Assembly (NCBI GenBank): GCA_903892355.1
Contig: CAITIE010000092.1
Span: 1 to 56,798, forward strand
Source of the DNA: an uncultured Pirellula sp.
GTDB lineage: Bacteria > Planctomycetota > Planctomycetia > Pirellulales > Pirellulaceae
DNA length: 56,798 nt
Direction of reading: 5' to 3'
Part shown: positions 8,804 to 32,323 of the stretch, in pieces
Position numbering within the stretch: position 1 is the stretch's first letter
How the letters are laid out: every line of letters begins with the position of its first letter
Translations under genes and position numbers: made by a program
Notes under the pieces: generated by a model
What the model saw: only the letters and a program-made list of their open reading frames with translations
What the model was told of the DNA's origin: nothing
Databases searched by the model: none

Positions 8804-9661
8804 ATGGTTTTAGCACCCCTCACCGTACCGGCTCATGGTTCCGCGTTGTCCGCAGAGGTCAAAATCGCATTGGAAGCTGCCGTTGCTGGGGCCAACGTGA
8901 TTCGAGATTGGGTCGGCAAACCCCTCGCTATGGAAGAAAAGGGGGTCGGTGATTTAGTATCGGAGGTCGATAAACGGGCCGAAGCATCCGTGCTGCGAGT
9001 GCTGGAATCCTCCCCCATCCGAGCTTCGGTACTCTCCGAAGAATCGGAGCCGAGCGTAGTCGAGGGCTCATCCCATTGCTGGATTATCGATCCACTCGAT
9101 GGCACCAGCGCATTCCTTTTCCGCGTTGGCGATCCGTTCCCGTCGGTGTTGGTCGCGCTCGAACAGGACGATCATCCGCTGGTCGGTGTGGTGCTGTTTC
9201 CACTTACCGGCGAGTGTTTCTACTCGCACCGCGGTATGGGTGCTTACAAAGACGGAGTGCGCCTTCATGCTCCCAATCCACGGCGGCTCCAAGATGTTTG
9301 GATCGATATGAATCAGTACGGCAATGCGCGGTACGAGACGGGGATGTTTGCTTACCTTAGGAATAAACTACGAACGCGGGAAGGGGCAAAGCTGGTAACC
9401 TCGCTCCCGCCCCACTCTGGGGTCGCCATGCGACTGCTCGACGGGACCACAGGACTTTCCGCCGTCGTGCATGACAACAATTCAGACAACGTGAAACAAG
9501 CGCCTTGGGATATTGCAGCCCCACGGGCGATCCTCACCGAAGCCGGCGGTTGCTTTGTATCTCTTCGAACCGGTCGCGATATCCAAACCCGCGATTGCGA
9601 ACCGATGGTGGTTACCGGCGACCGCGCCCTCGCCCAAGAAATCATCGACCTGGTCCAGTAA
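8804..9661 (+). CDS. Inositol monophosphatase family phosphatase
   Basis: A 285-aa Mg2+-dependent, Li+-sensitive-type phosphatase of the IMPase/CysQ/FBPase fold. The metal ligands are visible: Glu in LSEESEP (79/80), the signature WIIDPLDGTSAF (residues 93-104), and the C-terminal PWDIAAPRAILTEAGG near 234-249 (motif WDxAA). The substrate could be inositol phosphate, 3'-phosphoadenosine 5'-phosphate or another sugar phosphate; the family motif does not decide. I start at the ATG at 8804 because the fold begins right after it; an upstream GTG at 8609 would add 65 residues with no family match. It stands alone, divergent from the S46 peptidase operon. Confidence 0.88.
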   Translation: MVLAPLTVPAHGSALSAEVKIALEAAVAGANVIRDWVGKPLAMEEKGVGDLVSEVDKRAEASVLRVLESSPIRASVLSEESEPSVVEGSSHCWIIDPLDGTSAFLFRVGDPFPSVLVALEQDDHPLVGVVLFPLTGECFYSHRGMGAYKDGVRLHAPNPRRLQDVWIDMNQYGNARYETGMFAYLRNKLRTREGAKLVTSLPPHSGVAMRLLDGTTGLSAVVHDNNSDNVKQAPWDIAAPRAILTEAGGCFVSLRTGRDIQTRDCEPMVVTGDRALAQEIIDLVQ

Positions 9662-9816
9662 CCATTCGTTTTCATCACGATCCGTGCTTGCAGGTCTGAT
9701 TGCGTGATTCCATAGCGTCGAACGGTTGCTCCAGAAAACTACAAAAGACCTGCGATTTCTGTTACGATTTCTCATTCACACCCGCGCAATTACAAAATGA
9801 ATCCAAGGAGTACGCC

Positions 9817-10164
9817 ATGGCGAGAGATACTTTATTCCTTCTGAAGGAAGACTTCGTTGACGGAGTAGGAGCACCCTACTATTGCCCCGACTGCGCCCAA
9901 ATCACTGGGGTCCTTTCTTACTTTCCCAAACTGCGTCACCACGTTGATATCCGTTATGTCGACTTTGCCCGGCCTCGCCACGAAATCGTTGCGATACTCT
10001 CGGAACAACATCAAGGTTGCCCGGTCCTGATCCTGGACCAAACCCCTCCCATGGATGCTCTGGCGTATATCTCTGGACAAGCCAACGGCAAGAGTTTCAT
10101 CGCAGGAGCCAAAGCGATCGGGAACTATTGGTCCTACAAGTACGGCGTTTCGCGTCCGCACTAG
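9817..10164 (+). CDS. DUF3088 family protein, thioredoxin-like CPDC motif
   Basis: A 115-aa cytoplasmic protein matching DUF3088 in length and pattern. The N-terminal strand DTLFLLKEDF is followed by YYCPDCAQITG (Cys23 and Cys26), then HVDIRYVDFARPRHEIV and CPVLILD. This is the order of a small thioredoxin/glutaredoxin-like fold with a CxxC near the N-terminus, though the function of the family is not established. The start is well supported: AAGGAG at 9805-9810 lies 6 bases before the ATG at 9817. An in-frame extension upstream to 9700 exists but does not look coding. A small conserved-looking 66-aa gene follows after 175 bp. Confidence 0.85.
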   Translation: MARDTLFLLKEDFVDGVGAPYYCPDCAQITGVLSYFPKLRHHVDIRYVDFARPRHEIVAILSEQHQGCPVLILDQTPPMDALAYISGQANGKSFIAGAKAIGNYWSYKYGVSRPH

Positions 10165-10339
10165 CCACGCTCCATCAACATGAATTTCCCGCAATCTTAA
10201 TTCAAGCGATATTTGGGTGGCAACCGCGTCTCAGGAGCCATCAACCCGATACGGAATTTAGTATGCTGCTCTTCTGGCAAACCGCTCCGAAGCGCGCAGA
10301 ATCACCGTCCCAATCCTTTATATCGAGAAGCGTCCAACC

Positions 10340-10540
10340 ATGTCTAAAACGTATCTCAAGTTACAGCAGAGCGAAGGTTTCGTCATCGAAGCAGCAGCTC
10401 AGATCTACTCCGCATACATTATTTCGGGTCAGCTCACTCAGGAAAAAAAAGAGGTACTGATGAAAGAAGCCATTCGCGATGCGTTGCGAATCGCCCTCAC
10501 CGTCGATGAAACCATCATCGCAGAAAACGAGCCAGGCTAA
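10340..10540 (+). CDS. Small 66-aa hypothetical protein
   Basis: The predicted 66-residue product is mostly amphipathic helix: it begins MSKTYLKLQQSEGFVIEAAAQ and continues with two further helices (LTQEKKEVLMKEAIRDALRIA). No transmembrane segment, cysteine or known domain is visible. Codon usage looks like that of its neighbours, and GAGAAG lies about 11 bases before the ATG, supporting a real gene. Another frame overlaps upstream (10017-10460) but looks like a shadow. Function unknown. A stem-loop at 10561-10598 follows the stop codon by 20 bp. Confidence 0.65.
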   Translation: MSKTYLKLQQSEGFVIEAAAQIYSAYIISGQLTQEKKEVLMKEAIRDALRIALTVDETIIAENEPG

Positions 10541-10895
10541 GTGACTATCTGTGGAGACCGGTATCCGTGCGGGCTTGCATGAGGTAGCCGGCGGATACAC
10601 TCGGAAAAGTCCTTTCGGTACTCAAAGCAATCCATTGAGTAAATTGCGATGAGGTATTCTCCAAAAGCCGATTTACCACCGATAACACGAATGGCGCCGA
10701 TTCTGGTCGGAGCAACATCGAGCCCTCTTTATCCGTGCCATCTGTGTTATCCGTGGTTCAGTCCGTATCCATCATTAGGACCAATCGACGATATCCGTCG
10801 AGAACAATCGCCGAGTAGATTGGGAGCGGTCCTATTCAGGATCGACGAAGCGATGGATCCTGGAAGTTAGTCATCAAACGTAGGACTGCACTCTG
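10541..10895. other. Intergenic region with a hairpin and a planctomycete-type repeat fragment
   Basis: 355 bp between the 66-aa gene (plus) and the convergent lipoprotein gene (minus). It begins with the stem-loop at 10561-10598. The segment 10730-10757 (TATCCGTGCCATCTGTGTTATCCGTGG region) resembles a dispersed sequence I associate with planctomycete intergenic regions; only one copy is present here, so that is recollection, not evidence in this window. I see no gene. Confidence 0.35.
10561..10598 (+). terminator. Stem-loop after the 66-aa gene
   Basis: GTATCCG at 10561-10567 pairs with CGGATAC at 10592-10598. Inside it GGCT and AGCC form a second stem. No run of T follows, so it would be an atypical terminator or an mRNA 3' protecting structure. 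Confidence 0.45.
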
Positions 10896-11483
10896 TTAAG
10901 GTTTTTTCGGGGAGCCCTCTGTTCCCTCTGGAATTTGATCGTGACCGTGATCGGTGGTACTTTTGAGGATTGGATCGGCTCCCTGGACGACCAGTCGGAG
11001 TTTATTCTCTCCCTTCGAAGAAACCGTGAACCCTAACTCCGAGGTGGAATAGGAACTATGCTTGCGATGCACGACCCCCATAATGCTCGGTCGGTAATTA
11101 GGAATCTCTTCGGTAGGGATAAACTGGACAATGACACAACGATGGTCCCCAGCTACGGCACCATCACCGTTGGTGTAGGTCGTCAATTCAAAAGTTCCAT
11201 CGGTTGCGATGTTGCCGCGAGCCTGCACGGAATGCGTTACCGATTTGGTCTCGATCGTTCCGACCTTAACCGGACTTCCGTCGGCAAAGACCACTTCGCC
11301 TCGCACCGGGTAGGTTTTTAATCGCCCACTGTTGCAACCGACGCTCATCAGCAGCACGATCGCGCAGAATAGCTCGATCAACAACGTACGATGGGAAGGG
11401 AAAGATAAACGTAGGACCGGCTTCAACAGAGTACTTTTCATTCCGACCTTCATCTCAATTCTAGCCGCACTGCAGGCCAGCAT
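10896..11483 (-). CDS. Exported lipoprotein with carboxypeptidase-regulatory-like domain
   Basis: A 195-aa putative lipoprotein. A hydrophobic stretch (LIELFCAIVLL) ends in a lipobox-like MSVGC with the lipidated cysteine at residue 50, followed by YPVRGEVVFADGSPVKVGTIE. That V-x-G-x-V-x-x-x-G-x-P-x-x-x-G pattern is typical of planctomycete lipoproteins with a transthyretin/carboxypeptidase-regulatory-like beta fold. The stop of the upstream DUF1559 gene and the ATG at 11483 overlap as TAATG, which favours coupled translation. Internal ATGs (residues 11 and 15) would give a more normal leader length and are also possible. Its pairing with a DUF1559 gene is common in this phylum and suggests a joint surface role, function unknown. 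Confidence 0.75.
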   Translation of the reverse strand: MLACSAARIEMKVGMKSTLLKPVLRLSFPSHRTLLIELFCAIVLLMSVGCNSGRLKTYPVRGEVVFADGSPVKVGTIETKSVTHSVQARGNIATDGTFELTTYTNGDGAVAGDHRCVIVQFIPTEEIPNYRPSIMGVVHRKHSSYSTSELGFTVSSKGENKLRLVVQGADPILKSTTDHGHDQIPEGTEGSPKKP

Positions 11484-12484
11484 TACTCTTGATCCGCGAT
11501 CGGCTGACCATCACCTCGATTGCACAAACGTCCCAACGTGTCGGTATCGATGTTCGCGTTGATCGCGCGAACGCTGCCGTCGGCGACCGCAAAGTGGCAA
11601 TACCCACCGTGCCAGCTACCCCATCGCACCAAATCGTTTCCTTCTCCGCGAAGATCGGTTGCTATCGGAACCGTGGGCCCGCCGATCCTAGCCATGTTGT
11701 AAAGGTTGTCTCCGTTGAAGATAAAAGCATCTTGTGGTGACTGCCCGAGCTTGCCAATCGGAACGTGCATTTCTCCGACGAGCATCGTGTTGCTCAATCC
11801 ATCGAGAACGTGACGCTGCGAAATACGATCCTGCCAACCCACCGGAACACCGTTCATGCAGTTGGCACGACTGGAAATAATGATCCCTGTCCCATTCCCA
11901 CCGTAATTGAAGTCCGTAGGCAGTCCTGAGGACCCAGGAGACAAATCTCCGTGGTTCGCGCCGTAATCTCCAACCGCACCAGATGCGGTACCGCCACCGC
12001 CGATGGGATACTTGCAACCGCACGGTAACGTGATCCATATCGTTCCTCCGTTCACGAGATTGCCTTGGCCTTTGGCATCACCTGCCGATCGCCGCGACGG
12101 ACAGCAATACATGGGCAACGTCCGAGTCCTCACGTCCTCTGGATGATTCGCATACGAGATCGAATAATCCCACAACTGCTCCATATTCTTCGCTTCGGCG
12201 TAGGGCATGATCCGAACCAGCCACGTCGTTTCAGAGCCACCACACGACAGCGACGGAGGGTCACCGGGCCGCGGTTGATACCGTGCTGGTGGGTAACAAC
12301 CGTTCGCATTCACGAACATGTCCACAGCCAAGGAGATCTGGTGCAAATTGTTCTTGCAACTCATCGACCGAGCTGACTCGCGGGCGGCCTGAACAGCCGG
12401 CAACAGCAAACCAACCATTACCCCGATGATCGCGATCACGACCAAAAGTTCTACCAGTGTGAAGGCAGCGCGACGACGCATCAT
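11483..12484 (-). CDS. DUF1559 protein with prepilin-type N-terminus
   Basis: A 333-aa pseudopilin-like exported protein. The N-terminus [20 protein letters not shown] is a class III signal with the prepilin peptidase site before Phe and the conserved Glu5; the hydrophobic helix continues to [15 protein letters not shown]. The long C-terminal part is the DUF1559 (SBP_bac_10) domain, with [16 protein letters not shown] near the end, the H-x-G-G/DGSV signature of the family. DUF1559 proteins occur in very many copies in planctomycetes; a role as major pilins or surface fibres is proposed, not proven. GGGAG at 12490-12494 precedes the ATG. It overlaps the downstream lipoprotein gene by one base (TAATG). 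Confidence 0.92.
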
Positions 12485-20462: not shown

Positions 20463-21356
20463 CTACCAATCACCGGTCACAAACTCTCCATCCTCACGGT
20501 TGCAGAGATTATGAAAAACCTTGGGATCCAGGCCGTACGATAGGAAACGCATCGAACCATCACCGAAAACAAAGTTTCCGCCAGCGACGTGGAAACTCGA
20601 GAAACCGCCTACTAACAAACTCCCAGTCTCTGATGCGCGAGGAGCAATGTGATTGCGTTTCGGGGGAAGCATGAATCCTCCCCCATTTCTCAACGTCGCT
20701 CGCGTCCCTGAGGCCCAGCCCAAATCAGGATATTCCGAAACCTTTTCCCCAAAGAAGATCGTATTTGAGGAACCATCCGTGATATCGCTGAATTTGATGC
20801 GACTGTTTCGAAAAAAGACGCCATTATTGTCGCTGTCGATCGGCACCTCGCTATCGTGATAACAGGCCGCATAGGATGATGCAGCGGCAGCATCCGAATC
20901 CAATCCCTCGCTGCCGTAGGGTTGACTCGGGCACAAAAATGTCGAAACCCTCGCCGTTCGCGCCTTGGCGCTACCAGGAGCGTAAACGCCTTGAGCAAGA
21001 TCGAATTGCCGGTACAACGCCGACTGCTCTAAGTAAGGCAATACCTGAACCATCCAGCTGATATGTTTTCCGATCGGCTCATCTCGGATTGGTCCGGTTT
21101 CATTGATGGTACCACTCGGTAGATGCTCGGCTGAAAACTCATAGTGATGGGTAGCGAGCCCCAACTGCACCATGTTGTTCGCACACCCCATGCGACGCGC
21201 CGCCTCGCGAGCCGACTGCACCGCCGGTAACAGCAACCCGACCAAAACCCCAATGATAGCGATGACCACCAACAGCTCCACCAACGTGAACCCTTGGCTT
21301 TTCATCTTCGGATTCTTCGACAAATTCCAATCTCGATTTCGTATTCTGATTTTCAT
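20463..21356 (-). CDS. DUF1559 protein ending the pseudopilin operon
   Basis: A 297-aa protein with prepilin-type leader. The site is in [20 protein letters not shown], 18 residues into the frame, followed by [19 protein letters not shown]. The DUF1559 core ends with FVFGDGSMRFLSYGLD. I start at 21356 because GGGGAG precedes that ATG by about 10 bases; the internal ATG at 21305 would give a shorter leader. It is the last of seven co-directional, tightly spaced genes running from 26112, starting 18 bp after the pseudopilin-like gene stop. This ties a DUF1559 protein to GspF-like components. Confidence 0.92.
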   Translation of the reverse strand: MKIRIRNRDWNLSKNPKMKSQGFTLVELLVVIAIIGVLVGLLLPAVQSAREAARRMGCANNMVQLGLATHHYEFSAEHLPSGTINETGPIRDEPIGKHISWMVQVLPYLEQSALYRQFDLAQGVYAPGSAKARTARVSTFLCPSQPYGSEGLDSDAAAASSYAACYHDSEVPIDSDNNGVFFRNSRIKFSDITDGSSNTIFFGEKVSEYPDLGWASGTRATLRNGGGFMLPPKRNHIAPRASETGSLLVGGFSSFHVAGGNFVFGDGSMRFLSYGLDPKVFHNLCNREDGEFVTGDW

Positions 21357-21374
21357 CGGATTATCACTCCCCGT

Positions 21375-21905
21375 TTAAAGTTGTTTCGCTGAATACTTCG
21401 TTGTTCGCGTTCGCTGCATCGAAATCGGTACTCGCGACCTACCCGAAATTTGCGAGCGAACTTCAATCACCTTCGACCATTCATCTCCATCTTTCGTTTC
21501 AGTGCTTGCTGAAATCGCGGGCTCTGAAACTTGGATGGAAACCCGCATCGTTTTCCCTGAATCACCCAAAGGCATTTCCAGCCAATCCTCTCCTGTGTAC
21601 CCGCTATCCATAGAGAGTTTCTGCGTGGCCCGCATCAACCCTGCATCGCAAAGCAATTCGAGTTGCATTAGATCGCGCTCGGTTTTGCACGATTGACGGG
21701 CCCTCAACGTGACGCTTACCGCGACTGCGGCCAGCATAGAAAAAATCGCAAACGCTGCGATTGCCGCGATCAATATCGCACCGCGTCGATTCGACGATTT
21801 TCGATGCGCTTTTCGATGCGATTTCCTAGGCGCTACGTCGATGCATCTCGCACGCGTGCAAGACGCATCCGCGACACGTTTCCTCGCCAACCTAAATCGG
21901 CTCAT
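21375..21905 (-). CDS. Pseudopilin-like (PilX/GspK-like) membrane protein
   Basis: A 176-aa protein with a very basic N-terminus (40 residues rich in Arg and Lys), then SSNRRGAILIAAIAAFAIFSMLAAV, a single hydrophobic helix following Gly-Ala as in PilX/GspK N-termini. The remaining 100 residues are soluble, with IQVSEPAISASTETKDG. The ATG overlaps the previous stop as ATGA (21902-21905). The usual TLVE pattern is absent, so processing by prepilin peptidase is uncertain. In context it looks like a minor pseudopilin of a type II secretion or type IV pilus-like machine. Confidence in the gene is high, in the exact family moderate. Confidence 0.75.
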   Translation of the reverse strand: MSRFRLARKRVADASCTRARCIDVAPRKSHRKAHRKSSNRRGAILIAAIAAFAIFSMLAAVAVSVTLRARQSCKTERDLMQLELLCDAGLMRATQKLSMDSGYTGEDWLEMPLGDSGKTMRVSIQVSEPAISASTETKDGDEWSKVIEVRSQISGRSRVPISMQRTRTTKYSAKQL

Positions 21906-22456
21906 CGACTTGCCTCCCCAACACGATTGCTACCACCAACCACACTTTCGACCTTCAGTCGAACAGGGATCCAATCGCCATCGATCGCGTCGTGCACTTG
22001 GAGCTTGTCCAATACGATCACCCTGCCTCGTTTAGGTTTTTCCAATTCCTCAAAACGTGCGATGTAACCATCACCGAGGGGAAATAGTTCCTTTTGGTTC
22101 ATCGCCACTCCCTGGTACGATCGCACCGAAGATTCGCGAGTTACCGCAGCCCCCACCCATCGATACGTGACTTTATCCCCTAGCGAATCGACCCAATGAA
22201 CCTCAGTTTCCGACACAATTTCCAACTGCTCGGATCGATGTGCGTCGGAACGCCAGACGCTGGCAAGTCGTCCCAAGGTGGCTTGCAACTCCGCACGCCC
22301 TTGGGTCCTCTTCGATAAAAAGAAGGACTGGTGAATCATTCCAACGGCCAGGAATAACAGTGCGCTCCCAGAAATGATCACTCCCATCATGTCAATGAGC
22401 ATACTACCTCTGCGCCGAACCGCCGCTCCACGCTTGATGCATCGCAATACGTTCAT
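21902..22456 (-). CDS. Minor pseudopilin-like protein (GspJ-like position)
   Basis: A 184-aa protein. An N-terminal basic patch (KRGAAVRRRGS) precedes MLIDMMGVIISGSALLFLAVGMIHQSF, a single hydrophobic helix with an acidic Asp where prepilins have Glu5. The soluble C-terminal part has LQATLGRLASVWRSDAHRS and an ISETEVHW-like beta region. Start at 22456, overlapping the previous gene's stop (ATGA, 22453-22456); a longer frame from 22588 would overlap that gene by 136 bp. Position and size suggest GspJ/minor pseudopilin; the sequence alone is weakly diagnostic. Confidence 0.75.
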   Translation of the reverse strand: MNVLRCIKRGAAVRRRGSMLIDMMGVIISGSALLFLAVGMIHQSFFLSKRTQGRAELQATLGRLASVWRSDAHRSEQLEIVSETEVHWVDSLGDKVTYRWVGAAVTRESSVRSYQGVAMNQKELFPLGDGYIARFEELEKPKRGRVIVLDKLQVHDAIDGDWIPVRLKVESVVGGSNRVGEASR

Positions 22457-22908
22457 CGGCTCACCTCCTGAGCGTCCAGCCAACCGACCAACTCTACGGG
22501 AGGAAGAGTAGGTGTCTTTGGCCAAACAATTTGCAATCGAAGTCTTCGGCCGAATCGATCTGCGATTTCTTCCGCTGAAATTTGGCAATCGCTCAACGTC
22601 CGCGACACCTCCGAAGAAATTTGAAGTTCACGCAATGCCGCTGCGCGATCCTCCGGAGCCAGCCTCTGAAGGACCTCCAATTGGTTCGCAAGCTCATGCA
22701 ACGCGATCTGGTAATTCTTCGAGTCTTTCGCGATCCGCGTCAGGCGAAACCCGATCGTGGATAGAATCCCGACTAATGTGATCAGCAAAATCGCCGCGAC
22801 CAAAAGCTCTAACTGCATCAGTCCGTCACGTCGAGTCGGCGAAGGACCAATCACCCGCGGTCGGGTCCTCATCGTGCGATTCGATTTCGATTGGCTGAAA
22901 CACAACAT
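22453..22908 (-). CDS. Minor pseudopilin-like protein (GspI-like position)
   Basis: A 151-aa protein. After RRDGLMQLELLVAAILLITLVGILSTIGF, a prepilin-like helix with Glu five residues after the presumed cleavage site in G-LMQLE, follows a charged helix (LHELANQLEVLQRLAPEDRAAAL) and a beta-rich end. The leader is about 29 residues if the ATG at 22908 is used; an ATG at 22872 is possible. It follows the third GspF-like gene by 23 bp and overlaps the next gene by ATGA. Role as a minor pseudopilin is inference from order and N-terminus. Confidence 0.77.
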   Translation of the reverse strand: MLCFSQSKSNRTMRTRPRVIGPSPTRRDGLMQLELLVAAILLITLVGILSTIGFRLTRIAKDSKNYQIALHELANQLEVLQRLAPEDRAAALRELQISSEVSRTLSDCQISAEEIADRFGRRLRLQIVWPKTPTLPPVELVGWLDAQEVSR

Positions 22909-22931
22909 GATTTGATGGATTCTTTTCTGGC

Positions 22932-24035
22932 TTAACTCAGGTGGACTACCAATCTATACACCGATCCCAGGATCGCGTATGCGACCCACAGGACGATAGC
23001 TCCTACCAGCAATACCATGATTGGATTGGCAATCGAGCTCCAAAGATTGCATTGATGGCGGTATTGACGCTCATGCTCGTCCGCGATTCGCCGAAGCACC
23101 CAGCCTTGGGAGACAGGATCGCCGCTGACGTGGATCGCGTGGCTTTCTTCCGGAGTCAGCAATCCTGCCAGGGCGAGACTCGACCAAGGCTCAGCACCAT
23201 GCTCGATCTCATTCCTAGCCAGCAAAAGTGCACTTCGAGTTTTTGCCTGATAGTGATACTTGGCCAAAGTCGACAACGCGGCCGTAACAGGTCGGCCACT
23301 TGCAACGGGTACCGAGAGGATCCTCAGCAATTTCGAAATCGCATTTTGATCCTTACTCACTCGCCAACCGCTCGCGAGATTACGAATCCACTGCCGTAAG
23401 CGAAACGACCAGCCAAAAGCAATCGATAGCAATACTGAAAACAGAAATAGCCAAGCGATCGGACCTAAATATTTGAGGTTCTCACTCATCCTTTGCAAAA
23501 GATATGGCGCATAACCTTCGACCTTTGAAAGAAACCTGATGACCGGGTTGGTGATGGTGCTCAACAACAATAACAAGATGATCACCACCGAACCAACTAC
23601 GATCCAATAAAATCGGAATCCAGCCCAGTCGAACCGCTGCTCCATAGCCTCGGCATATCGACTTCGCCGATACAGGGCATGCATCGGATTCAATGTTCCA
23701 CTTTGGTCAGCCAGACGAAGCGAGACAACCATGTCGTCCGACAATACATTCGGTGTTTGCTCGATAGCATCTATCAGAGGCACACCCTCCCGAAGTCTCC
23801 TTGCCAAACTCTGCACACAACGGCAGTAGGTGCCACGTTGCTCAATTGCGAACGCATCGATGTACGTTGCGGGGTCGAGGGACTCTCGATGGATAACGTC
23901 CAAAAGCGATAACAAGCCGTGCTGCGAGGTCTCAAGATCCTCAGGGAGAAACCACCTCGAAAGCCTCCAACGCGAGGGGCGAACTCGGTTTCCATCGCGA
24001 GCAAATATTGGCCTTAAAAATATGCTGGTTTTCAT
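22932..24035 (-). CDS. GspF-like inner-membrane platform protein, third of three
   Basis: A 367-aa protein of the T2SS/T4P F family. The first cytoplasmic domain (SLLDVIHRESLDPATYIDAF to RLREGVPLIDAIEQTP) and the second (LLRILSVPVASGRPVTAALSTLAKYH to RIADEHERQYRHQ) show the repeated F-domain pattern, each followed by hydrophobic helices: VGSVVIILLLLLS and IANPIMVLLVGAIVLWVAYAIL. GAGGG after the upstream stop supports the ATG at 24035. It is separated by 10 bp from the preceding F-like gene. Among the three F-like proteins this has the best preserved second domain. Function is pilus or pseudopilus assembly; its ATPase is not in the window. Confidence 0.85.
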   Translation of the reverse strand: MKTSIFLRPIFARDGNRVRPSRWRLSRWFLPEDLETSQHGLLSLLDVIHRESLDPATYIDAFAIEQRGTYCRCVQSLARRLREGVPLIDAIEQTPNVLSDDMVVSLRLADQSGTLNPMHALYRRSRYAEAMEQRFDWAGFRFYWIVVGSVVIILLLLLSTITNPVIRFLSKVEGYAPYLLQRMSENLKYLGPIAWLFLFSVLLSIAFGWSFRLRQWIRNLASGWRVSKDQNAISKLLRILSVPVASGRPVTAALSTLAKYHYQAKTRSALLLARNEIEHGAEPWSSLALAGLLTPEESHAIHVSGDPVSQGWVLRRIADEHERQYRHQCNLWSSIANPIMVLLVGAIVLWVAYAILGSVYRLVVHLS

Positions 24036-24045
24036 GGTAAGGCCC

Positions 24046-25095
24046 TCAATGACTGAGCGCACTAATGAGTGAAATCAATGGCACAAACAATGCGATCACC
24101 ATAAAGCCGATCAGCAAACCGATCAGCATGATGACTACAGGACCGAGAAAGCCATAACCCCTGCTCTTGCGATTCCGCAATCGATCTGTGTAGATTTCCG
24201 CCATTCTTCTCAAGACGGCTATGTTTGGGGTCCCCTCCAGAGCTTGCTGCACGGTGGCTGGAAAGGCCACGGCAGCCTCTCGACCTGCAACCCCTTCCTT
24301 CGATTCCAGCAATTGACGGGCTAACTGATTGGATTGTCTCTGGTAATAGACACTTTGGCTTGCAACACCCGCAATTTCCACAGCTTTCGGAAGAGGCGCA
24401 CCGATGCTCAATAGCTCCGCCAATGTTGAAATCCAACGGACCATGGAACTCAGATTTCTGTGACTTCCCGCCATCAAAAAACCAATCGAGGGAATCACCT
24501 GCAGCCGGTGAAGCAAACCGGATAACCCGATCCAGGCAGAGACGATCGCGGAGATCACGATGACAAATGCAACAACGAAAGCGATGGGTTGGATTCGTGC
24601 GAATCGGCCTATCTGAATCAATGCCATCGTTGGCCTCGGCAGCATTAACCCAAACTCGAGAAACATCTTCTCATACACGGGAACAATCGTTCCGAGCATC
24701 CAACCGAGCAACAACAGAGCCAACACCATCAGAATCAATGGGTAGCTCAACTCGCGAGGAATCTTCCAGCGGTTACCGACGGTATCGGTCAGCAATCGGC
24801 GGATGGAATCGTTGCTGGGCGATGGTTTTTCGTGATCCTCACGGGACCGCAACGATTGAGACTCTAAAAGTATCGGCAACATCGCAGCTAACTTGGAGTC
24901 GGCGACCCATACCTCTGCAGGCACTTTGGCTTGCAGCGCCTCGAGCAACCTCGTCACCGAAGCATTTGCTCGCACATGCGGAAATTCCGCACGTGCGGCA
25001 GTCAGCAATCCCTGCAAACTTCCACTCTGCTCGATCGCTTGGCCAATCCGAGCCATGTAGCTTTCGCTTTCGGAAGTTGCATGATGATTTTCCAT
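24046..25095 (-). CDS. GspF-like inner-membrane protein, second of three
   Basis: A 349-aa protein with the F-family layout: a degraded N-terminal helical part, transmembrane LSYPLILMVLALLLLGWMLGTIVPVYEKMF, the typical post-helix LGLMLPRPT region, then STLAELLSIGAPLPKAVEIAG and RRMAEIYTDRLRNRKSRG, and the closing GPVVIMLIGLLIGFMVIALFVPLISL. The P-V-Y-E-x-F motif after the first membrane helix is typical of GspF. The start at 25095 lies 15 bp after the previous gene's stop. It probably forms a platform with its two paralogues. Confidence 0.87.
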   Translation of the reverse strand: MENHHATSESESYMARIGQAIEQSGSLQGLLTAARAEFPHVRANASVTRLLEALQAKVPAEVWVADSKLAAMLPILLESQSLRSREDHEKPSPSNDSIRRLLTDTVGNRWKIPRELSYPLILMVLALLLLGWMLGTIVPVYEKMFLEFGLMLPRPTMALIQIGRFARIQPIAFVVAFVIVISAIVSAWIGLSGLLHRLQVIPSIGFLMAGSHRNLSSMVRWISTLAELLSIGAPLPKAVEIAGVASQSVYYQRQSNQLARQLLESKEGVAGREAAVAFPATVQQALEGTPNIAVLRRMAEIYTDRLRNRKSRGYGFLGPVVIMLIGLLIGFMVIALFVPLISLISALSH

Positions 25096-25110
25096 CGCCT
25101 GCCCCCTTCC

Positions 25111-26112
25111 CTATTTGCACAGAGCCGTCAAAAGCTCTACCAATGGCCAAAACAACATGAGTCCGCTGGCTAACACAATGAACCCGCCGAACGACTGATA
25201 GACGAGCAGTGGCAACCAAGCTATCCCGCGTTTCTCCATCCATGCCAACTGGGAATGCTGGATGTCCGAAACCAACAGCAAGGATGCTGCGACAGCTTTT
25301 GGATCCTCGGAGGATCGCAATGCCCAATCCATCATTTCTCCTCGGCTGGTCTCCTTGCGATTTGCATCCTCTCCACTCTCGAGCAATTGCCCCTGCATCC
25401 AGCGGAAGGTATCAGGCGCCATTCCACTTCGATTTTGAAGCCATGCGAATGCGTCGCGAGCTGCTGCCGCGCGGCATGCATGCGTTGCCACTGACGTACT
25501 TTTCGGAAACCACCGCATCGAGGAATGGGCTGAGATCCAACGCCAGAGAAAGATTGAAATCAAGCTAATGCCGATCGCCATCAACGTGACGATCAACAGA
25601 TTCGACTCCACCCTCTCGAGCACTCGAAAGCCAGCCCCCGGCTCCAAACCCGCCACGTCGTAAAACCCCCGTAGTTTGGGGGTTAAATTGGCAACCATCG
25701 CGATAAAACCGAGCGAAGCAAAAACCCATAGGAACCAAAGGCCCCCAAACGTCGACACGAATCGATCGCGAGCCAACCGCCTCCACCGACCGACACCAAC
25801 CACTGGCTCCGCGGCAACCATCGATCGCCCCAATACAACCCAATCCGTCAGCGCCTGACGGTACGGAGCATTGAGCTCGGGCTCGCTCGTCAGTATCTCT
25901 GCCATCGATTCGCCTCGACCAACTCGCAATGCGATCCGACCGTTCAGCCGTTCGATCACTCCGGGAAGGTCACCTGGATCCCCGGTCAGAAGGAGAGGTA
26001 TTCCCGCTTTGGAAATCGCGAGCAAGCGTTCATTGAAAGCCAGAACATCGGCAAGCTGGATTTCGACTGGATACGTTTCGCCCATCATTGGCCACTTCAA
26101 GAAATACGGCAC
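25111..26112 (-). CDS. Divergent GspF-like membrane protein, first of three
   Basis: A 333-aa protein with the architecture of an F-family platform protein but weak motifs. It opens with VLAFNERLLAISKAGIPLLLTGDPGD, similar to the start of an F domain. Two hydrophobic helices follow around FGGLWFLWVFASLGFIAMVANLTPKL, and one more pair near the end, LLVYQSFGGFIVLASGLMLFWPLVELL. The internal helical part has KETSRGEMMDWALRSSEDP. GTG at 26112 or ATG at 26088 could be the start; I list the longer form. It begins the seven-gene operon, 216 bp downstream of the ECF sigma/membrane protein pair. Confidence 0.7.
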   Translation of the reverse strand: MPYFLKWPMMGETYPVEIQLADVLAFNERLLAISKAGIPLLLTGDPGDLPGVIERLNGRIALRVGRGESMAEILTSEPELNAPYRQALTDWVVLGRSMVAAEPVVGVGRWRRLARDRFVSTFGGLWFLWVFASLGFIAMVANLTPKLRGFYDVAGLEPGAGFRVLERVESNLLIVTLMAIGISLISIFLWRWISAHSSMRWFPKSTSVATHACRAAAARDAFAWLQNRSGMAPDTFRWMQGQLLESGEDANRKETSRGEMMDWALRSSEDPKAVAASLLLVSDIQHSQLAWMEKRGIAWLPLLVYQSFGGFIVLASGLMLFWPLVELLTALCK

Positions 26113-26328
26113 CTTCCAGCCACATCCGCACAGTCCACCCGGATTGCGTTCCAGGATTCAGCGTTAGAACCAATGAAACGATGCGCGACCGTCCTCGATT
26201 TATCTACTCAAGAGACATTATTTTCAGGGGTATCGGCCAGAACCAAGAACCAAGAATGTACGATCTCAAAAAGCCTAAAGACCACCTACTCGCATCTGTC
26301 TCTAGCAATTGGCAACTAGCTACTCTTC

Positions 26329-26763
26329 CTACGGATCGACTTTTGGCCAACGCGATGCCAACGATAACCGCCATTCGCGGTACGCATCGATGAGCGAATC
26401 ATCATGCCGAAGATTCTTTTCCGCTGCCAATCGTTCGGCCCGAGCCACGATCTCCTCGGAGGATCCTCGCTGGAAGCTACCCCCCCACCACGACTCCAAG
26501 GACTTGACCGTGATTGCCATTAAAAACAAGCAACCTGCGATCGCGATGGTTGCGTTATAGAGTTTGCGATCAGAGCGCCAGTCATCGGCGATCTCACGGG
26601 CTTTGCACAACACTTTCGAGCGAAGCGGATCGGACGGACGCACGTAGTCACGAGCCACTTTCAACTGGGCTTCCAGGTGGCGAACGTCCGAGTCGGTCAA
26701 TTCCGATCCAGGCACCAAAACACCATCCCAAATGTTGTCCGATTCGAAGCTTGCGTCACTCAT
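26329..26763 (-). CDS. Single-span membrane protein, probable anti-sigma partner
   Basis: A 144-aa protein. Residues 1-65 are soluble and helical (LTDSDVRHLEAQLKVARDYV), then a transmembrane helix NATIAIAGCLFLMAITVKSL and a short outer part with RAERLAAEKNLRHDD. The ATG (26761-26763) precedes the stop of the sigma factor gene, giving an 8-bp overlap, so expression is coupled. This size and order suit an anti-sigma factor, but no HxxxCxxC zinc motif is present. Alternatively it belongs to the pilus-like operon 217 bp downstream. Function inferred from neighbours. Confidence 0.65.
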   Translation of the reverse strand: MSDASFESDNIWDGVLVPGSELTDSDVRHLEAQLKVARDYVRPSDPLRSKVLCKAREIADDWRSDRKLYNATIAIAGCLFLMAITVKSLESWWGGSFQRGSSEEIVARAERLAAEKNLRHDDSLIDAYREWRLSLASRWPKVDP

Positions 26764-27340
26764 GCTTCACCTCGACCGTCTCTCCCTCGACCGACTCTCC
26801 CTCGAGCAAATAGGACAACTTCACCAGAGCATACCGATACCGACTCGCTGCGGTCGCGGGCGGAATCCCTAGAACATCGGCGATTTGAGCAAACGTCAAC
26901 TCCTCCCATACCTTGAGCACCACAACTTCCGACTGTTCGGTGGGGAGTTGCCTCAATGCTGTCCAAACAGCTCGTATCGAATCCTCTTGCTCCAAGTGAT
27001 CGACTCGGTTCCACGGCAGCAAATCGACGAGGCCTTGCGCGAACGACCAACGCCGCTTGCGTCTCAGAACGACCAACGATTCATTGCGCACCATTTGCAA
27101 CAAATAAGGCCAGGGAGACCGAGACTCGGCCAATTTGGAAGCGTTCGAAACGACCTTGAGAAGGGCCGAAGAAACGGCATCCTCAGCGTCGTGCTGGTTT
27201 CGGGTGATAGTCGCCGCAAATCGAACCAACCTCACCGCCGTCAGGTCGTACAATCCGCCGATCGCAACCGCACCACTTTCAGTGATACGAACCGCGCACG
27301 CACGGACATTTTCGGAGTAGGATTCAGAGTCGATCGCCAT
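26756..27340 (-). CDS. ECF-type RNA polymerase sigma factor
   Basis: A 194-aa sigma-70 family protein with regions 2 and 4. Region 2 holds ITRNQHDAEDAVSSALLKVV, matching the A-E-D-x-x-Q/S pattern of region 2.2. The following stretch has SPWPYLLQMVRNESLVVLRRKRR. Region 4 has LRQLPTEQSEVVVLKVWEELTFAQIADVLGIPPATAASRYRYALVKL, a canonical helix-turn-helix. The gene overlaps the membrane protein gene by 8 bp. It probably controls a stress or surface regulon; the pilus-like operon directly downstream is an obvious candidate target, by inference. The promoter it recognises cannot be read here. Confidence 0.93.
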   Translation of the reverse strand: MAIDSESYSENVRACAVRITESGAVAIGGLYDLTAVRLVRFAATITRNQHDAEDAVSSALLKVVSNASKLAESRSPWPYLLQMVRNESLVVLRRKRRWSFAQGLVDLLPWNRVDHLEQEDSIRAVWTALRQLPTEQSEVVVLKVWEELTFAQIADVLGIPPATAASRYRYALVKLSYLLEGESVEGETVEVKHE

Positions 27341-27476: not shown

Positions 27477-30400
27477 TTAAACCACGGTAAAGGTTGCGAT
27501 TTCGCTCTTGAGGCTGTTACCAGCCCCGTCGATGGCCTCGATTTGGATCTGGTAGGCCCCCGAAGTCACCGGTAGGGTTTCGAGCGTTCCCGCCAAATTG
27601 CTCCGAACCTTCGTTAGTGCCCCACCAGCAGGTCCCAGCCATACGTTGTAGCTAGCACCCATCGCGGAACTCGACCAACCGAGCCGAACCTTGCCTTGAT
27701 CGACCACCAACGACTGGAATGAAAAGGCTTTCAGATGAGCGGTCAAATTCAAGTACCGTTTATCCGAAGCGATCGAATAGGATTGATTCGTCTTCGTCAT
27801 CAACGAAATCATTTGTGGTCCATCGGGAATAGTTCCGAACAACTGGGCGATCGCAGCGTCGTTGATACTGAACGTTCCATCGCTGGACACGTACTGCGAT
27901 GCGTCTTTTTTATCGCCTCCGTTGAGTGTCGCATACAAACTGCGGCTGCTGGTCAGGATTTTGCCAGTGATACCTCGATCCGAGGTGATGGCTGACAAGC
28001 CTCCTGACTCCGCCATCACGAGATCCGCGAATTGCTCGCTGCGAGAGCCGGGGGGTGTGTTCAAGTAATTGATGACTACCAAGACATCGAGGGGCGACAA
28101 AGTCCCATCGCGGTCGACGTCGTAATCGAGCAAATAAGGTACCACGCCGCCCGAACCACTGTTCAGTCGGTTGATCACCACCAACGGATCGAGTGGCGAA
28201 ATGGTGTTATCGCGATCGGTATCGAAGGCCGACAGCCAATTCTCATCGACACTGGTCTCCGGGGATACATTGACGACAAAGGCAGACTTGGCGATCACCA
28301 CCGAGTTGCTTTTCGAGGTGACCATCATGGTATACGCCCCGGCGGTCGGATAACTGACGTTGCCCAGCGTGAACGAGACGCCACCTGTCACGGTGCGGTC
28401 GACTACTCCGTCTCCTTGGATATCGATCGAGTACTCGACAGATTGAGGTACCGGAGCCGGCAACCCGGTGATGTTGAGTTGATAGTTCCCCGATTGCCCA
28501 ACTCGTAGGAGTCCTGGCCCGGTGATCGTCAACGTTCCGATCGGCAACGGGTTCAAATTGATCAAGTCTCCAGACGAGTAGTTCATTCCCGTCGTACCGG
28601 TCCCAATCGCAGTCGTCTTGGCTCCATTGACAGCGATTTCGTAGACGCCGTCCACCAAACCGCTCGGCCCGACATAGGTCCCAGTGAACTCTAAATCCAC
28701 CACCGTTTTGTTGGCAACGAGGGACTTCGTCAACGTGTATGCAACTGTTGCGTTCCCAATATCCTTCTTGCGTACCGTGATGGCATCTGGCGCGATGGTC
28801 CCGAGTTCCATATCCCAAGTCAATCGCGCCTTGGAGATTGGGGAGACCAGCGGGCTGCCTTGTGTATCGGTCAACGCGACAACCTCGGGCCGATTGCCGA
28901 CGTTAATAATCAACGTGCGTTCCACGGGAACGGATCCAGCGATGGTTGGGTCACTTGCCCGAACGATCACCGTATACGATGGCTTGACCTCGTAATTCAA
29001 CAACGCTCCCGATTTGAGATTCAATTGATTCCCAATCACCTCAAACCATTCTGCATCAGCTCCGGCCAGGGAAATAACATTCGTTCCGATCGCATCATCG
29101 ATGATTGTGATGTTCGCAACCCTCTGCCCCGCAGAAACATCGTTGGTTTCTTGAATGAAGGTAGTGGTATTGCTCAACCGAACCTCGGTAGGGGCTTCGT
29201 TCACATCCCCGATCGAGAGCGAGAAGGTTTGCGACGCATCTGGGAAACCACTGAACGCTGCGTCGTCCACTTGGACAACCACTCGGTAGGAACTCTTCGT
29301 TTCAAAATCCAATGGTGTCGTTGAGCGGAAGCGAAGCTCAGTGCCGACGATACTGAAATTCGCCGAGTCGAGCGAATTGGCGAGCGACAGCACGTTATTA
29401 CCCAGCGCATCATCGGTGACTTGAATGTTCGCAACCCTCACCGCAGTGCTAACCGCTGTCGACTCAGGCAGTGGGCTTACTATATTGTTGAACTGAAGTC
29501 CCGTTGGCTTTTCGTTGACGTCGGTGATCTGAAGATTGAAGGTCACACTGACATCGGGCGTTGCTCCGAGCGTCGGGTCATCGGCCGAAACAACCACGGT
29601 GAACGTTGACTTGGTCTCGAAATCGAGCGGTATCGAACTTCGAAATCGCAGTTGTTGGTTCACGATCGAGAATGAACTGGCATCCGGTCCGGACAGGGAA
29701 AGCGTATTGTTTCCCAGACCATCGTCGACCACGATGATCGTCGCGACGGTTACCGGGCTGACCATACTGGTATTCTCCGGTACATTCACGACGTTCGAAA
29801 AAGTCACATTCGAGGGGGCTTCATTGACATCGTTGATGTTCACAGTAATCGTACGGGTCATCGACAACGACGGAGTCGCTCGATCGGTAACAGTGACCGG
29901 AACTAGGATTGTCGATTTGGATTCGAAATCGAGCCCGGAACTATTGTTTACCGTCAATGTTCCATTGAGGGCATCGATGGCAAATACCCCAACCGGATTG
30001 GTGAATCCCAACGAGTAACGAAACTCACCGTTGATCCCTTGATCTTCATCCGATGCGACGATGTTACCGAGTACTGTTCCTTTCGGACTATTCTCATCGA
30101 TTGAGAAAGTAGCTCCTTGTACGACGGGTGCTTCATTCACATCGGCTGGAACAAACGTGATGGTCTTGACGACCTTACCTGCGATCGGCAACGAATCAGC
30201 CACCTCGACGTCTACCAACAGGGGCGACTGGGTTTCGTAATCCCACTTGGAGGTATTGTTGAACCGTATCTCTCCGGTAAGTCCATCGATACTGAACGGC
30301 CCGGATGGACTCACGAATCGATACGTAAGAGTCTGGCCAGGATCGGAGTCCGAAGCTGCGACAACCCCAACCACGGCGTTCGTTGCGGGATTTTCGGAGA

Positions 30401-32117
30401 TCAACAACTGGGAAGTTTGAATCTCCGGCAGTACGTTCTGACGGTATCCGAAGAGCGGATCGCTGCGATGCTCAGATTTCGAGACTGTGAGCGGGTACGC
30501 AGAATTGTTGCTGTCGAGAGGGATCTTGTCCCCCGGGTAGCCGCTAACGAGCAGTTTATAATCCCCAGCATGCAATCCCTCCAGCCTCAGGTTCCCTCGT
30601 GCGTCAGTGGTTTCCTGATACTCCGGATAGGTATAACGAAGCTTATCAAAGGGGCCGAACGGACTCGTGTTTTGGATATTGTCGTTCGTATAGATAATCG
30701 CGTACTTGATGTCCGCTTGCGGCCGGACGACGCTCAGCACTTCTCGATCCGTACCGGTTAACGGAGCGGTTTCCTTGACGACGAGAAGGTTATTGTCGCG
30801 ATCATATAACTCCATGCGACCAACCGATGCCTTGATTTTCTCAGCCGCAATGGCTTCGATCGAAATCGCATCCGCCTCGCGATAGAACATGACTTTCAAC
30901 CGGCTACCACTATCGAACCAAGGAATACCTTCACTGGTCAAAACTCGAATCTTGTTAAAGTCAGGGTCAAAAGTCTCCTTGGTTCGAACAGCAAAACCGA
31001 TGTTCTTGCCATTAGCATCCGCGACCGTCAATGTTGCGTTGGGAAAGACATTTGCCAGCTCCGCGCCTATTACTTGTTCCGCTGCGTTGACTTGTACGAC
31101 CTTACTATCTCGGACACCATTGGCATTCATGTCTGCAAAAACGGTCACGCCCGGCAATGGAGCTTCATTGGCTGTGAGTTGTCCATCCCCGTTACTATCG
31201 ACGCCAGCAAATCCAAAGTAACCACCCCCGAAATTGTACGTACCGATATGGTTGACCGATCGGCCCGAGTAGACCAACGGACGAGGATCACCAAACGTTC
31301 CATAAGAGAATCGGTACTTAGAGTTCGGTGTGACCTTATCCTCAACCGTATTGCCACACACCCAATCTTCGAGTCCATAACCAGTCGAGCTACCAATGCG
31401 TGCAACGTAACCGCAACGCTCCTGAACCGTGTACAACGTACCAGGTGCATAATTGTGATTCGTGGTCAATTCCGAGTAAGTGATTCGACCGTACGACCAA
31501 CCGGGCGTTGGTGTGTAGCCCAACATGGCCACCGCATCGTGGATGGTCCATGATGCTGCAGGCCCATCCAAGACTCCATTATCGTCAACATCGATGTCCG
31601 TACCGACAGACGGTTTCACGGCGGTTTGAATCAGCAAGAAACTCAGCGAAGAACTCACGTGCGCCAAGCGATCGGAGATAGTCGAGGCATCGGTCCAACG
31701 ATTATTCGGAAGTCCGGAAAACGCGACACCCGTGCCCACCAACTTCGTCGATTGCGGATCAACTTGGTAGGTATTGCCTGCTTCCAGGATGGTTAGAAAC
31801 CCATTACTTCCGAAGGTCAAATTCGAAACATCGATCAAGCTATGGATGTAACCTGGTCCACCTGGGTACGCTCCCCAACTCTCGATGGTCGCAAAATACG
31901 TCCCATTCGGAATCAACGCATTCGGTTCGCCTCGCAACTCGATGTACTGGTCGATATCGTTATTGCCGAAGAGCGGCGAGTATTGAACCTCGCTGATGTA
32001 CGATGCGAGAACCCTTCGTTCCTCAAGTAATTCAACCCCCAAACGCCTTCTCGCTTGAAGGCGTCTGTTCCGACGAAGTTTATTCAATACGTCGCCGATG
32101 CGTTTGTGCAAATTCAT
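27477..32117 (-). CDS. Giant cadherin-repeat surface protein with dockerin
   Basis: A 1546-aa exported protein. After an amphipathic basic start it carries LLEERRVLA at residues 30-38, a motif found near the N-terminus of many planctomycete exported giant proteins. Residues 40-270 resemble a lamin-tail-like or discoidin-type beta domain. Next an SdrD/prealbumin-type region (about 330-570) precedes at least five cadherin-like repeats of the form S-E-N-x-x-x-x-x-V-x-x-V/I (about 580-1100), a PKD-like segment, a two-EF-hand type I dockerin (DTDRDNTISPLDPLVVINRL and DVDRDGTLSPLDVLVVINYL, about 1295-1357) and a C-terminal Ig-like domain. An in-frame ATG at 32135 is also possible. Calcium-dependent adhesion at the cell surface is likely. 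Confidence 0.9.
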   Translation of the reverse strand: MNLHKRIGDVLNKLRRNRRLQARRRLGVELLEERRVLASYISEVQYSPLFGNNDIDQYIELRGEPNALIPNGTYFATIESWGAYPGGPGYIHSLIDVSNLTFGSNGFLTILEAGNTYQVDPQSTKLVGTGVAFSGLPNNRWTDASTISDRLAHVSSSLSFLLIQTAVKPSVGTDIDVDDNGVLDGPAASWTIHDAVAMLGYTPTPGWSYGRITYSELTTNHNYAPGTLYTVQERCGYVARIGSSTGYGLEDWVCGNTVEDKVTPNSKYRFSYGTFGDPRPLVYSGRSVNHIGTYNFGGGYFGFAGVDSNGDGQLTANEAPLPGVTVFADMNANGVRDSKVVQVNAAEQVIGAELANVFPNATLTVADANGKNIGFAVRTKETFDPDFNKIRVLTSEGIPWFDSGSRLKVMFYREADAISIEAIAAEKIKASVGRMELYDRDNNLLVVKETAPLTGTDREVLSVVRPQADIKYAIIYTNDNIQNTSPFGPFDKLRYTYPEYQETTDARGNLRLEGLHAGDYKLLVSGYPGDKIPLDSNNSAYPLTVSKSEHRSDPLFGYRQNVLPEIQTSQLLISENPATNAVVGVVAASDSDPGQTLTYRFVSPSGPFSIDGLTGEIRFNNTSKWDYETQSPLLVDVEVADSLPIAGKVVKTITFVPADVNEAPVVQGATFSIDENSPKGTVLGNIVASDEDQGINGEFRYSLGFTNPVGVFAIDALNGTLTVNNSSGLDFESKSTILVPVTVTDRATPSLSMTRTITVNINDVNEAPSNVTFSNVVNVPENTSMVSPVTVATIIVVDDGLGNNTLSLSGPDASSFSIVNQQLRFRSSIPLDFETKSTFTVVVSADDPTLGATPDVSVTFNLQITDVNEKPTGLQFNNIVSPLPESTAVSTAVRVANIQVTDDALGNNVLSLANSLDSANFSIVGTELRFRSTTPLDFETKSSYRVVVQVDDAAFSGFPDASQTFSLSIGDVNEAPTEVRLSNTTTFIQETNDVSAGQRVANITIIDDAIGTNVISLAGADAEWFEVIGNQLNLKSGALLNYEVKPSYTVIVRASDPTIAGSVPVERTLIINVGNRPEVVALTDTQGSPLVSPISKARLTWDMELGTIAPDAITVRKKDIGNATVAYTLTKSLVANKTVVDLEFTGTYVGPSGLVDGVYEIAVNGAKTTAIGTGTTGMNYSSGDLINLNPLPIGTLTITGPGLLRVGQSGNYQLNITGLPAPVPQSVEYSIDIQGDGVVDRTVTGGVSFTLGNVSYPTAGAYTMMVTSKSNSVVIAKSAFVVNVSPETSVDENWLSAFDTDRDNTISPLDPLVVINRLNSGSGGVVPYLLDYDVDRDGTLSPLDVLVVINYLNTPPGSRSEQFADLVMAESGGLSAITSDRGITGKILTSSRSLYATLNGGDKKDASQYVSSDGTFSINDAAIAQLFGTIPDGPQMISLMTKTNQSYSIASDKRYLNLTAHLKAFSFQSLVVDQGKVRLGWSSSAMGASYNVWLGPAGGALTKVRSNLAGTLETLPVTSGAYQIQIEAIDGAGNSLKSEIATFTVV

Positions 32118-32323
32118 GGTTGGGCCACTAGTCACTTAACCGTCTTGTTATCTCACTGAAGACCAATCCTCAAAGTCTAATCCGATCCCTTCTATCGAAC
32201 AACCAAACCGAAAATGCCAAATCTAGAAACCACACAGCCAGAAGGGGGGATTGCTCGTATCGCAGCACATCGCGATGGAGGAGTATCAGGTTCAGCGTCT
32301 TCGCGTGAACCCCTGCCCCGGTC

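Follow-up and report, generated by a model that had tools for sequence, protein, structure and literature searches.

A planctomycete operon with three GspF/PilC-type platform genes probably encodes a type IV filament machine of unusual build

Introduction

The closest described counterpart of the locus treated here is PulF, a platform protein of the GspF/PilC type that, in the accessible text of its report, forms a homotrimer (modelled and crosslinked) with a pore lined by a Tyr-Pro pair in transmembrane segment 1 (TMS1) and a Glu-Pro pair in TMS3 (PMC10790770). That trimer was modelled on the PulE hexamer, each cytoplasmic domain resting on one ATPase subunit (PMC10790770). PulF comes from one gene. 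In contrast, an operon in a 56,798-nucleotide contig of an uncultured Pirellula sp. (GenBank assembly GCA_903892355.1, contig CAITIE010000092.1; this whole stretch is called the window below) encodes three paralogs of this platform protein, each with its own losses among the channel residues, together with three pseudopilins and a DUF1559 protein. We conclude that the cassette is conserved and probably works as a type IV filament machine, one of unusual build. At stake is whether the platform of a type IV filament is a symmetric trimer turned by an ATPase: if our reading is true, three non-identical platform subunits break the symmetry, and each position becomes mutable alone. In addition, the cassette links one DUF1559 protein, from a large family, to a machine.

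Other described systems share parts of this layout. The ComG operon has a short ATPase, a platform gene and pilin-like genes in a row, without a secretin. The cassette is like it in these respects (the short ATPase occurring in relatives of the window's locus) and differs in having three platform genes instead of one and a DUF1559 gene in the place of ComGC. The Tad platform CpaG/CpaH (TadB/TadC) likewise uses more than one kind of F protein and gives a precedent for a two-protein platform, although the two are halves of one; as far as the accessible text goes, a two-domain platform was split there into two one-domain proteins and modelled with C3 symmetry, whereas the cassette has three full-length proteins (PMC12019362). 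In P. limnophila, the locus Plim_0410-0401 likewise combines GspE and GspF with planctomycete-specific pseudopilin-like genes, according to the available part of PMC10632474. Among the matches listed in our search of the freely available journal literature, none described a platform of three paralogs.

Fibres that such a machine might build have been seen. In P. limnophila, crateriform structures carry pili-like fibres of 12 nm, and a stalk of 6 nm is known (PMC5394234); a type IV pilus-like apparatus was seen in other planctomycetes (PMC8303584); the accessible portions of both reports assign genes to neither. From the available parts of two further reports, DUF1559 proteins form a large, planctomycete-specific family, of which two planctomycetes have 74 and 68 members (PMC2754498, PMC10632474). 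They have been called a domain of unknown function in a new solute-binding family, nine members were up-regulated under cold and salt shock (PMC2754498), and 2 of 68 paralogs were essential (PMC10632474).

Results and discussion

Three platform genes in one operon

The seven genes of the operon lie co-directionally on the minus strand, from 26112 down to 20463, in the order F1, F2, F3, P1, P2, P3 and DUF1559. They are listed here in the direction of transcription, preceded by the features upstream.

26756..27340, minus strand: SIG, extracytoplasmic function (ECF) sigma factor, first gene of the set (Sigma70_r4_2 9.3e-13, Sigma70_r2 3.9e-10)
26329..26763, minus strand: X, small protein with one predicted transmembrane segment (68-86), overlapping SIG by 8 bp
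26113..26328, minus strand: 216-bp gap, the site of the ATPase gene casE in relatives L127 and L215
25111..26112, minus strand: F1, most divergent GspF/PilC-type platform protein, 333 aa, GTG start
24046..25095, minus strand: F2, GspF/PilC-type platform protein, 349 aa
22932..24062, minus strand: F3, GspF/PilC-type platform protein, 376 aa from GTG, with ATG 24035 as alternative start
22453..22908, minus strand: P1, minor pseudopilin, prepilin leader and Glu5
21902..22456, minus strand: P2, minor pseudopilin, ATG start (reading frame open from TTG 22588), Asp at +5
21375..21905, minus strand: P3, minor pseudopilin without Glu5 (GspK-like tip signature)
20463..21356, minus strand: DUF1559 pilin-like protein, prepilin leader, H-X9-DG motif

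An earlier, sequence-only reading of this DNA had described seven tightly packed genes separated by 10-23 bp or overlapping by ATGA, and the spacing proved to be as described. F1 and F2 are 15 bp apart, F3 and P1 23 bp, and P3 and the DUF1559 gene 18 bp; ATGA overlaps join P1 to P2 (with the P2 start at ATG 22456) and P2 to P3. The gap between F2 and F3 is 10 bp when F3 starts at ATG 24035, and the longer GTG frame (24062) gives a 17 bp overlap.

The same reading took the three F proteins for divergent members of one family and named T2SSF as the profile to check, which succeeded for two of them: F2 (4.9e-11) and F3 (1.7e-20) scored above the Pfam cut-off, while F1 gave no match in the Pfam scan and was recognised by profile-profile comparison. 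A profile of the F1 family (F1 and 16 relatives) matched four canonical GspF proteins of the same genome (hhalign 99.7%, 1.2e-26), the F2 family (99.9%, 3.3e-33) and the F3 family (99.4%, 3.7e-21), in each case over about 330 columns. Among PDB sequences it matched Myxococcus xanthus PilC (3jc8, 1e-33) and a general secretion pathway protein F domain (8e-12); a fold search with F1 returned nothing useful. Matches to NCBIfam models stayed under their cut-offs, both for F2 (PilC/GspF models, 1.4e-18 to 1.5e-6) and for F3 (GspF, 1.4e-14). Like GspF, each F protein of the window is hydrophobic at three places, and the profile matches indicate the fold of PulF, as far as the accessible text of PMC10790770 allows the comparison. 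Because of the Pfam and profile matches, we assign F1, F2 and F3 to the GspF/PilC type. In a tree of 61 sequences, F1 split from all others and F3 formed one clade, both with support of 100/100, and F2 stood next to canonical GspF.

The locus did not qualify as a Tad locus, as its contig has no T2SSE match and its F proteins match GspF over their length. What marks type IV filament systems, namely prepilin-type leaders with Glu5 together with a platform protein, is present.

Conservation of the cassette

We searched for the cassette within the phylum. Among 100 genomes of the family, 31 had F1 matches, and the neighbourhood was inspected in 20. When 292 genomes of the phylum were searched with the F1 profile, matches of at least 154 bits were found, among the matches listed, in 23 of 25 genomes of group f4, in 6 of 8 from the window's family and in the single genome of f5. 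With one f2 genome (G243, 141 bits), which was confirmed by its neighbourhood (L272), this gives at least 31 of the 37 sampled genomes of the class. The figure is a lower bound because divergent sets such as that of G074 score far lower; G074 had been considered as a control lacking the cassette and was rejected, as it carries a divergent SIG-X-F1-F2-F3-P1-P2-P3-DUF1559 set and was moved to the window's type. Neighbourhoods were inspected for 23 of the 31 F1-positive genomes of the class, and 19 of these had all three F genes. Outside the class, where 255 genomes were searched, the five best-scoring and two more were inspected, and none had three F genes: in G272 the locus breaks off after the first F gene, and G236 (L141/L275) has casE, two F genes and a pseudopilin gene, and may be intermediate between single-F and three-F loci.

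With known duplicates removed, all three F genes were present in 30 of 37 loci of the window's type and 22 of 28 others. Seven of the 13 loci short of an F gene end at a contig edge, and the F1 missing from L066 was present in the earlier F1 search. The fullest gene order, SIG-X-casE-F1-F2-F3-P1-P2-P3-DUF1559, was found in L127 and L215. Half of the other loci (14 of 28) had an ATPase gene (casE) no more than 2.5 kb away from the F genes, as did 0 of the 37 window-type loci; in other-type genomes casE often stands alone elsewhere. A scan of named genomes, which included Rhodopirellula maiorica, R. rubra, R. sallentina, Lacipirellula limnantheis, Botrimarina colliarenosi and Adhaeretor mobilis, gave 28 loci, none with casE near the F genes. 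The three-F set is an old, conserved cassette, with the same order in dozens of loci, more than chance would give. Two earlier suggestions, that the locus encodes a filament-type machine and that it gives one DUF1559 protein an operon context, are supported.

Channel residues and the composition of the trimer

We compared the four PulF channel residues in joint alignments from which rows longer than 700 aa and L141 had been left out. All four are kept in 10 of 10 planctomycete single-F GspF proteins. By contrast, each F family of the cassette has its own changes. The TMS1 Pro is present in 0 of 61 F3 proteins and the TMS3 Glu in 0 of 57 F1 proteins (one of them gapped). F2 mostly keeps TMS1 (Tyr and Pro in 53/56 each) and has the TMS3 Glu in only 8/56. 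In F1, TMS1 differs by locus type, with Tyr in 10/30 and Pro in 14/30 at window-type loci versus 26/27 and 27/27 elsewhere. None of the three F proteins of the window has both the Tyr-Pro pair of TMS1 and the Glu-Pro pair of TMS3. These family-specific changes therefore suggest a heterotrimer. On sequence grounds, the simplest reading is that the paralogs are specialised for positions in one trimer, so that F1, F2 and F3 would fill the three places of a single GspF/PilC-type trimer in a ratio of 1:1:1.

The paralogs might instead form separate homotrimers, serving extension, retraction or different pilin sets and sharing the pseudopilins. Such an arrangement would follow the homotrimer modelled for PulF, again in the accessible text of PMC10790770, and each F protein of the window keeps its hydrophobic segments at three places and aligns over its full length with the other families. 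We regard it as unlikely: the three genes are found side by side in a constant order, F1 and F3 lack different ones of the channel residues retained by planctomycete single-F proteins, and with casE beside the F genes in none of the window-type loci, three separate motors are not in sight.

Pseudopilins and the DUF1559 protein

The earlier identification of three pseudopilins and a DUF1559 protein with a prepilin leader was upheld: each of the four proteins has one N-terminal hydrophobic segment and a prepilin-type leader. Across homologs, Glu5 occurs in 47/49 P1, 49/55 P2, 0/55 P3 and 57/62 DUF1559 proteins, counts that include rows with a poor prepilin site call (P2 L138; P3 L070, L137 and L192; DUF1559 L065, L077, L129, L134 and L185, some of these not being real DUF1559 open reading frames). 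A missing Glu5 is a mark of the tip pseudopilin GspK. NCBIfam models gave P3 weak matches under their cut-offs, to ComGG (0.03) and to GspK (0.086; 12.4 bits against a cut-off of 130). The DUF1559 protein matched PF07596 (3.4e-54; 185.1 bits against a cut-off of 23.3), N_methyl (2.7e-8) and TIGR04294 (19.6 bits, cut-off 19). Its predicted structure has a 52-residue N-terminal helix, and all ten listed structural matches, weak ones, were type IV pilins. Thirty-eight DUF1559 match rows were found in the source genome. A second DUF1559 gene of the window lies outside the operon, at 11483-12484 on the minus strand (PF07596, 121 bits).

In the filament that we propose, P1 to P3 would prime the fibre, with P3 at its tip, and the DUF1559 protein would be its chief or most abundant subunit. 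The crateriform pili-like fibres of P. limnophila are candidate products of the cassette.

A secretion machine like the type II secretion system (T2SS), with a short periplasmic pseudopilus, no surface fibre and the DUF1559 protein as cargo or piston, would also account for part of these features, in that P1 to P3 resemble the I/J/K set in their order and in the lack of Glu5 in P3, and six secretin matches occur elsewhere in the genome. A type II secretion locus has GspE and the secretin GspD with it, and profile searches of the genome gave no T2SSE or secretin match on the window's contig, in agreement with the absence of both that was noted earlier. The nine proteins scanned matched none of the GspC, GspL and GspM families, for which the genome was not searched. 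The N-terminal part of GspE binds GspL. It is this end that is shorter in casE, by about 110-155 residues relative to canonical GspE, and the leader and predicted structure of the DUF1559 protein are pilin-like. We therefore hold a T2SS-like machine to be distinctly unlikely.

The ATPase gene casE

The gene upstream of F1 in relatives encodes a GspE-type ATPase of 386-464 aa, with conserved ATPase motifs and PF00437 scores of 285-318 bits in five. A search of 40 genomes with casE gave a bimodal distribution, the best score being at least 493 bits in 26 genomes and at most 407 in 14. A further search of 14 genomes gave at least 481 bits in eight cassette genomes and in G361, whose casE ortholog (L298) stands in a genome where the three-F cassette was not recognised. 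Five genomes with no recognised cassette (G018, G080, G232, G334 and G373) had no casE match above 391 bits, and short ATPases of another kind occur in some of them. All 34 other-type cassette genomes tested (26 and 8) thus have casE, 5 of the 34 having been assigned the cassette by F1 score alone; these search results all hold among the matches listed.

The solitary ATPases of the casE clade score 382-452 bits, which overlaps ordinary GspE proteins (up to 407), so score alone cannot settle whether casE is absent. In a tree of 62 ATPases (its row PilT_G000_L023 being a mispicked copy of the neighbouring GspE), casE formed one clade of 33 rows with support of 100/98, which takes in short solitary ATPases of G013, G087, G037, R. 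rubra, R. sallentina and Botrimarina. Nineteen window-type genomes were tested (13 and 6 further named ones, with CA13 counted as G087); a casE-clade ATPase was present in trans in 6 and none was found in 13. The tree thereby ruled out a loss of casE in all window-type genomes. A second tree of 99 rows, to which contig-end fragments in G025 (C53, C5) and R. maiorica (C356) did not contribute, included 54 ordinary-looking ATPases of the 13 genomes; all of them fell outside the casE clade (33 rows, FastTree support 0.905). A second family of short GspE-type ATPases (L249, L250 and L251) stood apart from casE in both trees. Among the 13 are G074, G072 and G006, each a single contig, as well as L. 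limnantheis and A. mobilis, represented by chromosome records, so the absence is not explained by missing contigs. It is a lineage trait of the window's type, not general to the cassette. The sequence-only reading was thus right that the window's locus lacks its motor gene, no casE-clade gene having been found in this genome, while many relatives have casE upstream of F1 or standing alone. The 216-bp gap held no convincing casE remnant (best tblastn E 0.014). We had also considered that casE loss is coupled to the loss of the F1 Tyr-Pro pair; this fails within the window's type, as Lacipirellula has no casE that we found and keeps the pair, and R. rubra has casE and lost the Pro.

A hexameric GspE-type ATPase would drive the machine, as the dedicated casE may do in most relatives tested. 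The window's genome has five other full-length GspE/PilB-type genes, and the machine could borrow an ATPase encoded elsewhere, such as the second GspE of the E-PilT-E-F locus on C75. We lean towards a dedicated machine of the type IV filament kind, with a heterotrimeric platform, a DUF1559 fibre and a motor acting in trans. It is very unlikely that the asymmetric platform of this lineage works without any assembly ATPase, own or borrowed, on another energy source: the window's F proteins also lack the acidic channel residue that has been proposed for ion-driven work, and the genome has other GspE-type ATPases available. The lack of an ATPase gene, and the poor conservation of F1 (16-23% identity to the other 16 rows of its alignment), could be taken as signs of a decaying duplicate of an ordinary T2SS or type IV pilus locus. 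With intact reading frames in tight order across much of a class, and with family-wide signatures at the channel residues and Glu5, we consider decay highly improbable.

Other filament loci

The source genome (6.18 Mb, 158 contigs, 97% complete) gave 18 match rows for T2SSF, 12 for T2SSE and 6 for secretin; the window's contig has only the T2SSF rows of F2 and F3. An ordinary single-F locus doing the work elsewhere had been named as a challenge to the earlier proposal. That challenge holds in part: single-F loci do exist, beside GspE-type ATPases on C125, C76, C75 and C64, and since they do, the cassette is an additional system rather than the only one. Loci that are Tad-like by layout occur on C13 and C133. 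Another contig (C153) carries a GspF-type gene and a pseudopilin gene (L084, about 9344-11125) and no T2SSE match. Two adjacent orphan T2SSE-type ATPases (L089, 9711-12518) lie on C98, which has no T2SSF match. One of the two is not cassette-specific, as a relative was present in each of the 14 genomes searched, whether or not a cassette was recognised there.

Genome G338, which we take to be P. limnophila, carries the cassette at 4.38 Mb (L123), apart from its E-PilT-E-F locus. By position and gene order, Plim_0410-0401 corresponds to that locus (L124, L125), which has one F gene, unlike the cassette. It is therefore ruled out as the cassette, and we claim no essentiality for the latter.

The sigma factor gene and its neighbours

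The range singled out by the sequence-only reading, 20463..27340, also spans the genes for the ECF sigma factor and the one-transmembrane protein X, which it did not mention. In 27 of 37 window-type loci, versus 4 of 28 others, SIG was no more than 3.5 kb away from the F genes. A Pfam scan of X gave no match, and 12 members gave six weak matches only (E 0.025 or worse), each in one of the 12. Its position suggests that X is a putative membrane anti-sigma factor, and the two proteins probably turn the operon on upon an envelope signal. Adjoining SIG is an open reading frame of 1552 aa (27477-32135, minus strand) with cadherin-like and dockerin-like repeats by eye; in G010 (L064), an open reading frame of similar size lies in the same place.

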